From NCBI RefSeq assembly GCF_000316685.1, contig NC_019680.1:373501-437500 (forward strand): 64,000 bases of DNA, given 5' to 3'. The DNA is from Synechococcus sp. PCC 6312 (GTDB taxonomy: Bacteria; Cyanobacteriota; Cyanobacteriia; Thermosynechococcales; Thermosynechococcaceae). A model generated the notes under the pieces. That model was given only the letters and a program-made list of their open reading frames with translations, did no database searches and was not told the origin of the DNA. Below, piece after piece: positions 44,407 to 54,129 of this stretch; within the stretch, counting starts at the first letter, position 1, and each line of letters starts with the position of its first letter. The position numbers were made by a program, and so were the translations under genes.

Positions 44407-45591
44407 TTAGTTCTGGATTGCTTCTAATTCTTTTAGCAGTACCCCAGGCCCCTGACTGCCCCCGTGATAGCCCTGTTGAACATGGGTGCGGATAATCTGC
44501 TGAAGCCGTGATAAACCCCAGGCCCAGACCCCCACTTGACTGGCGATCCCCCCTACCCAAACACTGACACCCCAACTCAACTCCCCCAACATCCAGGCCC
44601 AGCCACTTTGCCCCAATAAACCAATCCCCAAGGTGGAGATTAAAATAATTTGCCAGGCCTGGCCGCTAGCAGGTGGGGTTAAGGGGATGCCATAAAATCG
44701 ACAGAGCCATCGAGCCAGGCCAAAACTGCTCCCTAGGCCCAAGACCATATCCCCCAGGCCCCAGGGCAGGAGAACCATTCCCAAACCCGCCAGCGGAATG
44801 AACCAAACTGTTCTCAGAGTGGGCTGGGGTTGATCTAAGAGAGTGGTACCTAGGTGTTGCTCAATGCTCAGGGTTTGTTGGAGAACCTGTTGAGCCCGTG
44901 ATTTAGGGGCAGTTTCGGTCAGCCAGGTTGTTAAGGCCAGGGATAGGGGTTGAATATTGGGTGTTAAGAGTTCCCGCCCAGTTTCTGCCACAGGGGCTGC
45001 ACTAACTAATAAAACTTGGTCTAGGGTAATAAATTGAGCCAGGCCGGCCTGTTGGAGTTGTAGATCTATATCCACTTTTGACCAGGCCAAGTACAAATCC
45101 TGTTTATTGGCTACGAACAAGAGTGAAACTTGTAACTCCTGGAGTTTTTTTAGGGCGTTAATTTCGACTGGATTCAACGGCCCGGCCGTGACAAATAGAA
45201 CTAAATCGGCCTGTTGGGCCACCTCCCAAGCCATAGCCGCCCGTTGTTCACCCGCGAATTCATCCAGGCCAGGGGTATCGGTTAAGTCTATGGCATAGGT
45301 CTGGCCTGCTAATTCCACTTGCCAGCGAACCGAGTGGGGCCAGAGGGTGATGCCGTGGGTGGGGCCAGTGGGAAATTGGGGTTGACCCAGCAGGGCATTA
45401 ATCAGCGCAGATTTACCCCGACTGACCTGACCCAAAACAGCAATTTGCCAGACTGGATAGGCCAGCTTTTCTTCCAGGGCCACCAACTCACTCCAAATTA
45501 TTTCCTGGGCCGGATGATGATGTTGATGCCAGGCGATTAGATGTTGTAAACAAGCCTGCACTCTAGCTGAACAATCCAGTGGCTCTGTCAC
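44407..45591 (-). CDS. Era-like GTPase with C-terminal membrane domain
   Basis: A 394-residue GTPase of the dynamin/Era-like type. The G1 loop is VLGQVSRGKSALINALLG, G3 is LTDTPGLDEF, and G4 is VANKQDLYL. After the G domain, a region with four or more hydrophobic segments (VWFIPLAGLGMVLLPWGLG, QIILISTLGIGLLGQSGW and others) anchors it in a membrane. Start GTG at 45591 with AAGGGG just upstream. It begins 12 bases after the pseudo-GTPase gene, so the two are one operon and probably act together. Confidence 0.8.
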   Translation of the reverse strand: MTEPLDCSARVQACLQHLIAWHQHHHPAQEIIWSELVALEEKLAYPVWQIAVLGQVSRGKSALINALLGQPQFPTGPTHGITLWPHSVRWQVELAGQTYAIDLTDTPGLDEFAGEQRAAMAWEVAQQADLVLFVTAGPLNPVEINALKKLQELQVSLLFVANKQDLYLAWSKVDIDLQLQQAGLAQFITLDQVLLVSAAPVAETGRELLTPNIQPLSLALTTWLTETAPKSRAQQVLQQTLSIEQHLGTTLLDQPQPTLRTVWFIPLAGLGMVLLPWGLGDMVLGLGSSFGLARWLCRFYGIPLTPPASGQAWQIILISTLGIGLLGQSGWAWMLGELSWGVSVWVGGIASQVGVWAWGLSRLQQIIRTHVQQGYHGGSQGPGVLLKELEAIQN

Positions 45592-45603
45592 GATCCCCTT
45601 TCC

Positions 45604-46860
45604 CTAGACCTGAGGCTGGAAACTACGGAAAAAGGCGGATCGGGGGAGTTGAGCGATGGTTTTTTGCAGGCTGGCCTGGAGTTGTGAGCCTAAATTCAGC
45701 TTAGATTCTGGTTGCGCCGCAACGGTTTGCCAATAGTCAATTAAACTCAGTCCTCCCACTCGCAAGAGATAGGCCACACTGGCTCCCTGCAAGCAGCTTC
45801 CGGCCAAGTAAGTCAGGCTATTTCCTTTTAGCCAGTGGCTGAGGGTTTGGGTTGTCACTTCCACCGCGCCGAATTGCACCAGCAAGCGTAAGAGAGTTTC
45901 AGCCAGGGGCCGGGCCTGGGTCAGGTCGAAATTGCGTTGATAGACTTTGCCAATCTCCAGGGTTAACTGCACCAACAGCCCCCCGGTGACGACTAGATCT
46001 AAAATGGGCAGCGGGTTGACGGCGGCCGCTCCGGCTCCTAACCATTGATAGCGGTTAATAATCGGCAAGGCTAGCTCTTTACGAACTTGGTTGAGATGAT
46101 CTTGGGTTTTTTGATGGAGGCAGATCGCAGCTTGCCATGTTTGTTGCCAGATCAGTACTTGTTTTTCGGTTGCAAGAATTTCTGTCAGTCGCAATTGTAA
46201 AGATTCCAGGCCTGGGGGGTTTGCGCTTATTCTGATCCAATCTTGAGGGGGCACAAACTCAGCTAATTTACGGGTTAACTCCTTTTCAAGAATTCCTAAT
46301 TCCCCGATATAGGCCCGGGGGGGTTCCTGCCAAAGGACTAAGAATCGTTGCTGTTGATCTTGAAGAGTTTGTAAGGCCTGGTACTCACTCCTGGTTAAGT
46401 CCCCAGAAATCACAAATAAAATTAAGTCACTGTTGGGGATCGCCCTCAAGTCTTCAGAGACCTGAATTTGCCAGTTTGAAAGCCCGACACCAGCTAATTC
46501 CGCGCCTAAACTAGCCAGACAATTGCCGACATTCCCCCACAATGAAAGGCTTAGGTCTTGTCGTTGTAAGCTCTGTCGGATTGCGGCCAGTTGGTTTTGC
46601 AGGTCGTGATCGGGGGTGTACTGGTTGAGGGTGGTGATCAGGGCCTGGGTAGCCTCCAGTTGGGTCGTAATCTGGCCTGGGGTAATTACCTGAGGCTGGC
46701 TGGTTGGTAGGTTACTTACAGAACTGGGGAAAAGTCCTCGCCACCACCAGGCCCCCGCCGCTGCCAACAGACTAAAACCAATCCCCCAGGCCGGATGTGA
46801 CCCTAACCAGGTGAGACTCCAAAAGACACCGATTAAACCCGCAGCAAACCAGAGAGGCAT
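45604..46860 (-). CDS. Pseudo-GTPase with DUF697-like C-terminal domain
   Basis: A 418-residue protein. After one or two N-terminal membrane segments (LWFAAGLIGVFWSLTWLG), residues 110-240 align by layout with the G domain of the neighbouring GTPase, but the P-loop position reads LWGNVGNCLAS, without GKS, and no DTPG or NKxD is seen. The C-terminal third (RYQWLGAGAAAVNPLPILDLVV) is DUF697-like and membrane-associated. I prefer the ATG at 46860 over the TTG at 46872. It lies immediately upstream of a true GTPase. Confidence 0.75.
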   Translation of the reverse strand: MPLWFAAGLIGVFWSLTWLGSHPAWGIGFSLLAAAGAWWWRGLFPSSVSNLPTSQPQVITPGQITTQLEATQALITTLNQYTPDHDLQNQLAAIRQSLQRQDLSLSLWGNVGNCLASLGAELAGVGLSNWQIQVSEDLRAIPNSDLILFVISGDLTRSEYQALQTLQDQQQRFLVLWQEPPRAYIGELGILEKELTRKLAEFVPPQDWIRISANPPGLESLQLRLTEILATEKQVLIWQQTWQAAICLHQKTQDHLNQVRKELALPIINRYQWLGAGAAAVNPLPILDLVVTGGLLVQLTLEIGKVYQRNFDLTQARPLAETLLRLLVQFGAVEVTTQTLSHWLKGNSLTYLAGSCLQGASVAYLLRVGGLSLIDYWQTVAAQPESKLNLGSQLQASLQKTIAQLPRSAFFRSFQPQV

Positions 46861-47065
46861 GGGACAAAACAAGGGACGCGCAAGATATCACCTAAAAGCC
46901 TACCAACTCCCCGCCCCCTAAAACTGGGATCTGCAAATGTCCGGAACCGAGCCTCAAAAATCAATCCCCAAAAGGATAGGTCTTAACCGATTCATCCCAA
47001 CGAGAAAGAGGTTTTTTAACGGCCCCCGCTCTAATTCTAAAGGGGTCACACCCTATCCACCGGGC

Positions 47066-48978: not shown

Positions 48979-50994
48979 ATGGAATTAAAGCGGCGGGATT
49001 TTCTACAGGCGGCTGGGGTCTGGTTGGTAGGGGTAAGCAGCAGTGAATTCATTCTCCAATTGGTAAATTCTCCCGGCCTGGCCGCAACAACGCCTCCCCG
49101 CAAGCGGGCTTTACTCATTGGCATTAATCACTATGGGACTGGGGAGGTTTTACCGTCCTTGCAGGGATGCCTCACCGATGTGGAGCTACAAAAGCAGTTA
49201 TTGCGCTATCGCCTGGCCTGGGCGGCTGGGGATATTCAGGTTTTAACCAATCAAGGCGCGACTCGCACTGCAATTCAGGCCGCTATTGAGGAGTTTTTAC
49301 TGGCCGGGGCCACCAGCGGGGATCGGTTGTTTCTCCATTTCAGTGGCTATGGACGGCAGGTGTCGGGCCTGGGGGAAACCTTAATACCCTACGATGTCCA
49401 GGCCGATGGGAGTGGTGATCTTCCCTTGAGTTGGTTTAGTCAGAAGCATCTACCCGCTGGGGTAACATTTTGGTGTTGTTTTGATGCGGGGTTTCAACCT
49501 AATCCAGGCCTTGCCCAACGCGTCCGTCCGCCCATCGGAACATCCCTGAACCTCTCCCTCAGACCCTCTCCCGGTATGATTTGGCTGCAACCGACCATTG
49601 CCAGAGAAATTCAACTGCTGGGAACCCAGGCCGGGGCCTTGACCCAGAGCATCACAAAACAGCTTTGGAGTAATGCCTCAACCAGCTCCCTCAGCGGATA
49701 TTGGGCGGCCCAGGACTTAGAACGGCAAACCGGCGAACTAACCCATCTCCACTGGCAGGCCGAGGCGGGGGCGCGCATTCCCGGAACCCTAAACCTGAAT
49801 GGGGGGCTAACCTTGTCAGGGCCAGGGGCCGATGCGGCGATCATCACCTCTGCTCAGGACAGTCAGACGGCCCAAATTTGGCTAGGCGGAATGGCCAGTC
49901 CCCTACTGACCCAGGCCGGTTGGCAAAGCTATTTTGAACCAGTTGGGCCAGAGTTACCCAAAACAAACCCAGCCATTTTGGTGCAAAATCCAGTCGGACT
50001 AACGGCCATAGCCCCAATGACAGACCTAAGCACTCTCACCACAGGGACATTATTGCGAGAGCGATTGCGGCTATTACCCCATCATTTAACCTTGACCATT
50101 GGCCTAGCCGAAACCTTGGATAAGGTCACGCGCATTGATGCTGTGAGTGGCTTAGATGGGTTGACGGATTGGGTCAGTTCCACAACGGAGGGGACAGGGG
50201 ATTATCGTGTCATGGCCCAGTCGGACGCTGAACATTGCCTCTATGGATTGGCTTGGCCCGGTGGGACTGTCTTCCCTCAAACCCTGGGCACTCCGGGAGA
50301 AGCAATTAAAGGGGCGATCCGGCGGCTGGGGACTATGTTTCCAGTGTTGCTCGCTAATAAATGGTTGGGTTTAACTTTAAATGGCGAAACCTCCGGCCTG
50401 GGTGTGACCGTGGCCTGGGAAAAATTACTCCCTCAACCAGAGTTATTGCTGCGAGTCCAAACAGAACGGGCCTTGTGGGCCGCCCCAGAAACAGCCATCG
50501 GGAATTTTTCAGCCCAAGCCTGGGAGCGGGGTGTCACCTTCCAAGTGGGGCAGCAATTTTGTTATCGGCTGACAAACTATAGTCCGGCCCCCGTTTATGC
50601 CCTTTGGTTGGCTTGGGATAGTGCTGCGGGCCTCTTGGTTTTACCCACATTGATGGACTCTCCCCAACTCACCTGGCAGCTAACCCTCGCCCCCCAATTA
50701 ACAACCACCTTACCCGTGCGAGAACTGCGTTATACCAGCCCTTGTGTCAATAGCTATCTCCTCCTCAGCCGCACCCCTTTCACCCAGGCCCTTGATTATT
50801 TGGCTCAGCTGCCCACCAGTGGAGACCCCCCTCGTCTCGTTCCCTCCAAGGAAGCTTTGGCTTTAGTCCAGGCCATTCTTCGGGATCTCCATCAAAATAA
50901 TCCAGAGTCACCCCTCAAGCCAGCTACTACCAGTGCATACACCCTTGATCTCCAGGCCTGGGCGACATTTTGCTTCACGTTTCGGGTTGTGTAA
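48979..50994 (+). CDS. Tat-exported orthocaspase-like protein lacking the catalytic dyad
   Basis: A 671-residue protein with a twin-arginine signal (KRRDFLQAAGVWLVGVS) and a caspase-like p20 domain (residues 42-200) beginning RALLIGINHYGT. In active members the catalytic His is in HFSGHG and the Cys in DCCHSG. Here the first reads HFSGYG (Tyr124) and the second CCFDAG (166-171), where the catalytic Cys is replaced by Phe or Asp, depending on alignment. So proteolysis is unlikely. The C-terminal 450 residues have no recognised domain. Cyanobacteria are known to carry orthocaspase variants with altered dyads. Confidence 0.8.
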   Translation: MELKRRDFLQAAGVWLVGVSSSEFILQLVNSPGLAATTPPRKRALLIGINHYGTGEVLPSLQGCLTDVELQKQLLRYRLAWAAGDIQVLTNQGATRTAIQAAIEEFLLAGATSGDRLFLHFSGYGRQVSGLGETLIPYDVQADGSGDLPLSWFSQKHLPAGVTFWCCFDAGFQPNPGLAQRVRPPIGTSLNLSLRPSPGMIWLQPTIAREIQLLGTQAGALTQSITKQLWSNASTSSLSGYWAAQDLERQTGELTHLHWQAEAGARIPGTLNLNGGLTLSGPGADAAIITSAQDSQTAQIWLGGMASPLLTQAGWQSYFEPVGPELPKTNPAILVQNPVGLTAIAPMTDLSTLTTGTLLRERLRLLPHHLTLTIGLAETLDKVTRIDAVSGLDGLTDWVSSTTEGTGDYRVMAQSDAEHCLYGLAWPGGTVFPQTLGTPGEAIKGAIRRLGTMFPVLLANKWLGLTLNGETSGLGVTVAWEKLLPQPELLLRVQTERALWAAPETAIGNFSAQAWERGVTFQVGQQFCYRLTNYSPAPVYALWLAWDSAAGLLVLPTLMDSPQLTWQLTLAPQLTTTLPVRELRYTSPCVNSYLLLSRTPFTQALDYLAQLPTSGDPPRLVPSKEALALVQAILRDLHQNNPESPLKPATTSAYTLDLQAWATFCFTFRVV

Positions 50995-52545: not shown

Positions 52546-54129
52546 ATGACTGCCAGTTTGCCCCCCCTGATTCAAGCTATGCTTCAGCCGCAGTTTTATC
52601 CCCATCCGGTGCAGACTCCAATTCGGTTGTTGCAAACCCACATTTCCTATGTGCTGCTAACAGGGGACTATGCCTATAAGGTGAAGAAACCAGCGGACTT
52701 TGGCTTTTTGAATTTTTCGACCCTAGAGCGGCGACATTTTTTTTGTCAGGAAGAACTACGCCTGAATCAACGCCTCTGCCCGGATTTGTATCTCCAAGTC
52801 CTGGGAATTGAGCAAGATCCTAAAATGTCAACCCAGTCAGCAGGGGCGTATGGCTGGTCACGGGGCGAGGGGACAATTTGCGACTATGCCATTCAAATGT
52901 GCCAGTTTGACCAGGCCCAGTTATTTAGCCACCTCTTTGCCGAGAATGCCCTCACCCCAGAATTAATGGTGCAATTAGGAAAACAACTAGCCCAGTTTCA
53001 TGGCCAGGCCGCGACTAGTCCCGATATTACCAACTTTGGCAGTCCGGCCGCTGTTCAAGAGATTGTCGAAAATTCCTATGGCCTGGGCCAAGGGTTCATC
53101 GGGCGTTCCCAAACAGACGCGCAATATCGAGAAACTAAGGCATTTACGGATCAGTTTTTCCTGCATCATAGTGATTGGCTTCTTGAACGCCAGGCCCAGG
53201 GGAAGATTCGCGAATGTCACGGGGATATTCACCTGAATAATATTTGTCTGTATCACGACTTGATTCAGATTTTTGATTGCATTGAGTTTAATCAGGAATT
53301 TCGCAACATTGATGTGATTTATGATGCGGCGTTTTTGGTCATGGATTTGCAGTTCCGGGGACGGCCGGACTTAGCCAATGCTTTTTTGAATGCGTATTTG
53401 GAATGGAGTAATGATTATCGGGGTGCGGTGTTATTACCCTTGTATTTGAGTATGCGGGCCTATATCCGCGGCAATGTGAATTCCTTAGCTTTGAATGATC
53501 CTGCCATTCCCGACACTGATAAGGTGACGATTGCTCAGACTGCTGCCGCTTACTACCACCAGGCCTGGGGCTATACTCAACCACAAACAGGCGCGCTCTA
53601 TGTCATGGTCGGCGTTTCGGGTTCTGGTAAATCTACGGTGGCCCGTCAATTAGCCCAGCAAACTAATGGGATTCATATTCGCTCCGATGCCGTCAGAAAA
53701 CATTTGGCAGGCCTGGCCTTGGATCAACGGGGGGATCAGGCAGGGGGATTTGGAACAGGCATTTACACGCCAGAAATGACCCATAAAACCTATGACTGTC
53801 TCTTGGATCTGGGAATTTTCCTCGCTGACCAGGGAGCAACGGTGATTCTTGATGCCAAATATGACCACCAAGCCCTGCGGCAAACGCTAATCTCCCAGGC
53901 CAGGGCCAAAGAAATACCCCTAAAATTTATTTACTGCACCGCACCTGTAGAAGTCCTTCATGACCGACTCAATCAACGTCAAGGGGATATTGCTGATGCC
54001 ACAACCAAAATTTTAGCGGCCCAAATGGCTGTCTTTGAACCCTTTAGTCTCGCCGAACAGGCCTGCTTACATACCATTCAGACCACTGACCCACTTGGGC
54101 CGCAATTGAGCCAATATAACTCCCACTAA
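52546..54129 (+). CDS. Fused aminoglycoside-phosphotransferase-like kinase and AAA_33 ATPase
   Basis: A 527-residue fusion. Residues 1-340 are a kinase-like APH fold with HGDIHLNNICL (catalytic HGDxHxxN) and IFDCIEFN (metal site DxxE). Residues 350-520 are a P-loop kinase (AAA_33) with Walker A GVSGSGKSTVARQL and a segment TVILDAKYDHQAL. Cyanobacterial relatives are annotated as bifunctional aminoglycoside phosphotransferase/ATP-binding protein; the natural substrate is unknown and antibiotic resistance is not implied. ATG at 52546 follows the AT-rich spacer. Confidence 0.82.
   Translation: MTASLPPLIQAMLQPQFYPHPVQTPIRLLQTHISYVLLTGDYAYKVKKPADFGFLNFSTLERRHFFCQEELRLNQRLCPDLYLQVLGIEQDPKMSTQSAGAYGWSRGEGTICDYAIQMCQFDQAQLFSHLFAENALTPELMVQLGKQLAQFHGQAATSPDITNFGSPAAVQEIVENSYGLGQGFIGRSQTDAQYRETKAFTDQFFLHHSDWLLERQAQGKIRECHGDIHLNNICLYHDLIQIFDCIEFNQEFRNIDVIYDAAFLVMDLQFRGRPDLANAFLNAYLEWSNDYRGAVLLPLYLSMRAYIRGNVNSLALNDPAIPDTDKVTIAQTAAAYYHQAWGYTQPQTGALYVMVGVSGSGKSTVARQLAQQTNGIHIRSDAVRKHLAGLALDQRGDQAGGFGTGIYTPEMTHKTYDCLLDLGIFLADQGATVILDAKYDHQALRQTLISQARAKEIPLKFIYCTAPVEVLHDRLNQRQGDIADATTKILAAQMAVFEPFSLAEQACLHTIQTTDPLGPQLSQYNSH

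Follow-up and report, generated by a model that had tools for sequence, protein, structure and literature searches.

A Tat-type caspase homologue lacking the catalytic dyad, of the cyanobacterial pseudo-orthocaspase family, in Synechococcus sp. PCC 6312

An open reading frame of 671 amino acids plus stop, with an ATG start, lies at 48979..50994 (+) of the 64-kb stretch of Synechococcus sp. PCC 6312 (contig NC_019680.1, positions 373,501 to 437,500) that was analysed, called the window here. The encoded protein has one significant Pfam match, to PF00656 (Peptidase_C14), which covers residues 41-139 (E-value 1.1e-10; 42.1 bits, where the cut-off is 21.4). Across the 3.72 Mb genome (3,697,276 + 23,223 bases), the window protein alone matches PF00656. 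The nearest other homologue, from a neighbouring genus of the same family, is full length with 40% identity. Of the genomes searched, all 29 of the family and 132 in a sample of 386 from the phylum gave a homologue match, indicating that the gene is real and widely conserved. The p20-like caspase core spans residues 41-176 (49099..49506, +), supported by the Pfam match and by metacaspase sequence and fold matches, among them a VIA-align Z of 16.8 to Arabidopsis metacaspase 4; it places the protein among the caspase homologues of peptidase family C14 and bears out the core read from the letters alone in a preliminary description. Pseudo-orthocaspases are defined by a p20 domain with His and/or Cys substituted (PMC6426788), and active orthocaspases by a His-Cys catalytic dyad. 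The window protein carries Tyr124 and Gly171 at these two positions and is a member of the cyanobacterial pseudo-orthocaspase family, of the Tyr-Gly variant. Table 1 of PMC6426788 gives WP_015123192.1 of Synechococcus PCC 6312 as Tyr-Gly, and this may be the window protein itself.

The genes around it in the window encode a TPR protein, GTPase-like proteins, DUF2127 and DUF4278 proteins and a kinase-like protein, and no evident link to a functional partner was seen among these neighbours. At 44407-46872 (-) a dynamin/GTPase-like gene adjoins a DUF697 gene, the latter related to the slr1306 family, and the product of the gene at 52546-54129 (+) combines an APH-type phosphotransferase half with an AAA_33 kinase half. 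Elsewhere in the collection, ATP sulfurylase (sat) was found in the fetched flanks of 69 of the 80 named loci from species genomes (L057-L136). Its usual place is immediately upstream, in the same orientation (66 of 78 sources compared, with sat named by eye from the sequences); L060, L084, L110 and L113 are examples of this upstream position. A putative methylthioadenosine phosphorylase gene, also named by eye, lies downstream in 14 loci. The Nodularia gene M32 is likewise described as adjoined by sat and methylthioadenosine phosphorylase (PMC4933709). The genome of the window and those of three relatives have sat at another place, so the pairing does not account for the window gene.

The register of the active site was established by comparison with Arabidopsis metacaspase 9 (AtMC9), which phmmer aligned with the window protein at an E-value of 5.5e-8. 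In this alignment the H-Y-S-G-H-G of AtMC9 falls on H-F-S-G-Y124-G of the window protein, and its S-D-S-G-H falls on F168-D169-A170-G171-F172. According to the entry titles, the Gly of the aligned AtMC9 chain is the engineered C147G substitution, so Gly171 occupies the catalytic Cys position. Tyr124 (49348..49350, +) stands at the catalytic His position, as first described, and Asp169-Ala170-Gly171 (49483..49491, +) corresponds to the D-x-C motif with Gly in place of Cys. The absence of the catalytic Cys was also read correctly at first, in a register that does not hold: setting CCFDAG against DCCHSG places the motif three residues too early, with F168 in the Cys position that belongs to Gly171. 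Cys166 and Cys167 lie in the strand preceding the motif, at columns that vary among homologues, and the AtMC9 and homologue alignments together rule out C166, C167 and F168 as the catalytic Cys position.

The homologue alignment comprises 118 rows, the window protein and 117 homologues, of which 115 are distinct; three pairs are identical because one contig occurs in two collections, and restriction to the 115 distinct rows leaves the picture unchanged. Column 124 holds Tyr in 107 rows, Cys in 6, Phe in 3, and His and Leu in one each, while column 171 holds Ser in 93, Gly in 13, Arg in 10, and Cys and Ala in one each. Column 169 is Asp throughout (118/118). The pairs formed by 124 and 171 are YS (83 rows), YG (12), YR (10), CS (6) and FS (3), with HG, LS, YC and YA in a single row each; His and Cys occur together in none of the 118 aligned rows. 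These counts bear on the proposal that the protein is a hydrolase of altered chemistry, in which Tyr and/or some other residue would be the nucleophile; the 93 rows with Ser at the Cys position and the 107 with Tyr124 could be taken as support. Position 171 is Gly in the window protein, Arg in 10 homologues and Ala in one, so that it offers no conserved nucleophile; the variation at 124 or 171 (CS, FS, LS, YC, HG) likewise argues that no single new chemistry is conserved, and no replacement dyad was recognised by eye. An altered hydrolase is very improbable on this evidence.

The pairs are not put forward as a new dyad type, as YG, YR, YC, CS, FS and HG are already among the printed variants (PMC8283722, PMC6426788) and YA is printed for cyanobacteria (PMC6426788). 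Tyr combined with Ser, Asn, Gln or Gly was reported in 2010 (PMC2853523), and the Tyr-for-His change of cyanobacterial pseudo-orthocaspases is also in print (PMC6426788). Half-retained dyads occur in Phormidium pseudopriestleyi (L090, Tyr-Cys) and in L051 (His-Gly). In one genus of the same family (g11, L004-L013), all ten aligned homologues carry Arg at the Cys position, within DTRF; three of the ten genomes give no PF00656 match, though each matches the window protein. On a speculative reading, the Arg of these relatives might fill the protein's own pocket. The homologue L015 (genome G020) is spread over two open frames, of 474 and 176 residues, perhaps because the gene is disrupted in that species or because of a sequencing error.

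The extent of the caspase fold was assessed with an AlphaFold2 model built from the window protein and 51 homologues (mean pLDDT 75.2, pTM 0.77). VIA-align superposed residues 41-282 on Arabidopsis metacaspase 4 (6w8r_B; Z 16.8, 212 residues, 3.0 Å) and residues 40-273 on MALT1 (Z 16.0, 205 residues, 3.6 Å), and in both cases the matched span continues beyond p20 into the p10-like half. Residues ~204-256 (49588..49746, +) appear, on the model, to be part of the caspase fold as its p10-like second half, with moderate confidence; pLDDT is low to moderate, about 38-70, over residues ~201-256. The PF00656 match of the window protein itself stops at residue 139, and that of L003, the nearest to it, covers profile positions 2-86 only. 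In two homologues the match covers 1-226 of the 233 profile positions, over residues 41-299. In view of these two matches and the fold spans past p20, the description "lacks p10" may overstate the case for cyanobacterial pseudo-orthocaspases.

Beyond this fold lies a further folded module. Modelled alone, residues 282-671 gave a pLDDT of 87.3 and a pTM of 0.89, and by our own reading of the secondary structure they fall into three domains, the first all-beta, the next alpha/beta and the last again beta-rich. The all-beta domain covers residues ~283-365 (49825..50073, +) in this model, and the alpha/beta domain covers residues ~366-494 (50074..50460, +), which rank with the most conserved parts of the sequence. 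A search with the profile of the C-terminal region gave hits in 122 of 145 class genomes. Nearly all frames among the matches listed exceed 600 residues, the exceptions being 294, 574 and 454 residues, and these lengths fit a C-terminal module that is usually joined to the caspase domain.

Part of the C-terminal region was assigned through relatives. PF14326 (DUF4384) matches 50 of 52 C-terminal sequences (alignment A3) at E ≤ 0.1, with a best E-value of 6.7e-10, and 12 of the 19 members of the first alignment at E ≤ 1. Of the two sequences left unmatched, one is the window protein, which does not count as a DUF4384 protein by the Pfam criterion. In L060 and L044 the match covers 554-646 and scores, in bits, below the curated Pfam cut-off, and their residues 560-645 map onto residues 528-599 of the window protein. 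The region that corresponds to DUF4384 of the relatives, by mapping of the homologue matches, is residues ~521-600 (50539..50778, +). The YS and YN proteins are reported in PMC6426788 without a further domain. The C-terminal region, initially described as unassigned, thus remains so only in part, as residues ~204-256 resemble the caspase fold and residues ~521-600 are the DUF4384 region of relatives.

It was also suggested at the outset that the C-terminal region could carry the real activity. In a fuller form of this idea, the module would be an enzyme that the pseudo-caspase domain regulates or localises. The module is confidently folded in the model. The conservation of residues 366-494 comes close to that of the p20 core, the commonest residue making up a mean fraction of 0.64 there and 0.68 over residues 37-140, and alignment A2 shows no variation at Glu361, Arg364, Asp387, Asp408, Lys461, Asn468 or Asp636. 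Set against this, Pfam and NCBIfam gave no enzyme family in the region (the sole NCBIfam match is a caspase below cut-off), its profile had no sequence match in the PDB, and the model had no Foldseek match at E ≤ 0.001. Only DUF4384 is recognisable, and it is itself a domain of unknown function. With no enzyme family and no confident fold match, we consider a C-terminal enzyme unlikely. For the C-terminal half, the best VIA-align result among the best 1000 Foldseek chains was the likeness of the all-beta domain to an F1-ATPase beta-barrel (Z 8.0, 71 residues); this likeness was rejected, since a Z of 8.0 is within the tool's stated background, at the level of a common arrangement. With the comparison confined to those 1000 chains, a missing match carries little weight.

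The N-terminus reads M-E-L-K-R-R-D-F-L-Q and is followed by a hydrophobic stretch with small residues before about residue 37. This Tat-type signal region covers residues 1-36 (48979..49086, +), with RRDFLQ at 5-10 and a putative cleavage site placed by eye at about Ala35/Ala36; the model gives residues 13-36 a pLDDT below 50. No row of the alignment departs from Arg5 or Arg6 (118 of 118 rows, and all 115 distinct ones), a count slightly favoured by the choice of start codons (ATG, in the first set also GTG or TTG) ahead of [RK]R..[FLWYM]. The loose pattern [AVSTI]xA occurs within residues 16-75 in 117 of the 118 rows. The window protein thus has both the N-terminal RR and the A-x-A of the YS/YG Tat-type group, for which this leader has been described and export to the periplasm or the thylakoid lumen proposed (PMC6426788). 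One tatC match was found in the genome (E-value 3.1e-62). Together with the arginine pair, it upholds the earlier reading of a Tat-type N-terminus.

Published proteomics of another genus point to the lumen. Table 1 of PMC7880944 lists A0101 of PCC 7002 as "ICE-like protease (Caspase) p20 domain protein" with sll0148 as its homologue. The lumenal probe PsbU-APEX2 enriched A0101 at 7.64, compared with 7.31 for PsbO, and A0101 is given there as not found in the cytoplasmic control. By analogy, and with homology taken from the authors' table, this labelling supports a lumenal location for the family. Among the papers listed by a literature text search, no title or abstract links this proteomics entry with the Tat hypothesis.

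The acids of the specificity pocket appear to have been kept along with the fold. Pseudo-orthocaspases are reported to retain both specificity-pocket Asp residues known from TbMC2, whatever the dyad (PMC6426788). By motif correspondence, made by eye from that paper, the pair in the window protein would be Asp67 (49177..49179, +; GC-LT-D motif) and Asp169. Like Asp169, Asp67 is invariant across the 118 aligned rows, and neighbouring Cys64 is kept in 109 of them. The two invariant acids are consistent with a retained basic-residue pocket, putatively for binding, and their presence in p20 suggests that an Arg- or Lys-containing segment is the probable ligand.

Taken together, we hold with moderate confidence that the protein is a Tat-exported pseudo-orthocaspase, most likely lumenal, with a predicted non-catalytic role in pocket binding or as a scaffold. 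After folding in the cytoplasm, the protein would leave it through Tat; the thylakoid lumen is its most likely destination and the periplasm a possible one, and there it would be unable to cleave peptides by the caspase mechanism. The p20 pocket acids Asp67 and Asp169 would probably bind an Arg/Lys-containing segment of a lumenal protein, and the C-terminal module with its DUF4384-like domain would probably serve as a scaffold for partners. The protein may thereby act in the handling of photosynthetic membrane proteins or in oxidative-stress signalling. The gene, its fold family, the dyad loss, the conserved leader and the conserved pocket acids are observed here; for relatives, labelling in the lumen and an altered H2O2 tolerance on knock-out are printed, and for PCC 6312 itself we infer binding, partners and pathway. 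The proposal of a folded, non-proteolytic binding protein made in the preliminary description fits the evidence found, the hypothesis of PMC6426788 and the A0101 labelling; the motif register given with it fails, and the suggested C-terminal activity is not supported.

Phenotypes in print limit the role further. Deletion of sll0148 (SyOC, Tyr-Gly) in Synechocystis is reported to leave growth normal and to improve survival in H2O2, and its transcript drops within 30 min of H2O2 (PMC7889975). An essential assembly role is unlikely, because the deletion causes no growth defect under normal conditions. As the only C14 gene in its genome, the window gene cannot regulate an active C14 relative there. 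The improved survival and the rapid fall of the transcript speak for a pro-death or stress-signalling pseudo-protease that would respond to oxidative damage in the lumen by lowering survival, independently of photosynthetic assembly. The H2O2 phenotype comes from another genus and is possibly indirect, and expression in control conditions is continuous (PMC7889975); the Nodularia gene M32, beside sat, is likewise described as expressed at a fairly constant, near-median level (PMC4933709). We regard such a pro-death function as doubtful, and the non-catalytic binding or scaffold role as the better explanation. A more specific form of the latter, which we put forward as speculation with a low chance of being right, is a lumenal "basic-residue reader": the acidic pocket would hold a photosystem II assembly or repair protein by an Arg/Lys tag or loop and leave it uncut, and the p10-like half and DUF4384 would relay a redox or damage signal.

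The lost dyad, the Tat-type leader and the likely non-catalytic role are all already in print. What is added here is modest: the motif register is corrected, DUF4384 is assigned via relatives, a p10-like half is made likely, and the lumenal proteomics entry is connected with the Tat hypothesis. Across most cyanobacteria a caspase fold is kept without its catalytic pair and is apparently exported to where oxygen is made, and this retention bears on the roles of caspase-like proteins outside cell death.

Among known systems, the YS/YG pseudo-orthocaspases (PMC6426788), including SyOC/sll0148 (PMC7889975), are the closest. As far as they are described there, they share with the window protein the Tyr for His and Gly for Cys in p20, the RR leader, the position as sole C14 gene in a unicellular genome and the pocket acids. 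There is no difference of substance, apart from the DUF4384 found here in relatives where no further domain is printed. PCC 7002 A0101 (PMC7880944) shares the caspase p20 and, by the authors' table, homology to sll0148, and was enriched by the lumenal probe; the PCC 7002 protein is Tyr-Ser (PMC6426788), whereas the window protein is Tyr-Gly. The metacaspases (AtMC9, AtMC4, yeast Yca1 and TbMC2) share the caspase fold, over residues ~40-280 of the model, and the pocket acids; in contrast to them, the window protein has no His-Cys dyad and carries a Tat leader and a C-terminal module of ~390 residues. Bacterial forms lacking p10 have been named orthocaspases (PMC6426788). Finally, TbMC4 of T. 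brucei, a YS pseudo-metacaspase, is likewise non-catalytic with its dyad replaced, but is processed by an active metacaspase (both as cited in PMC6426788), whereas no other C14 gene was found in the genome of the window.
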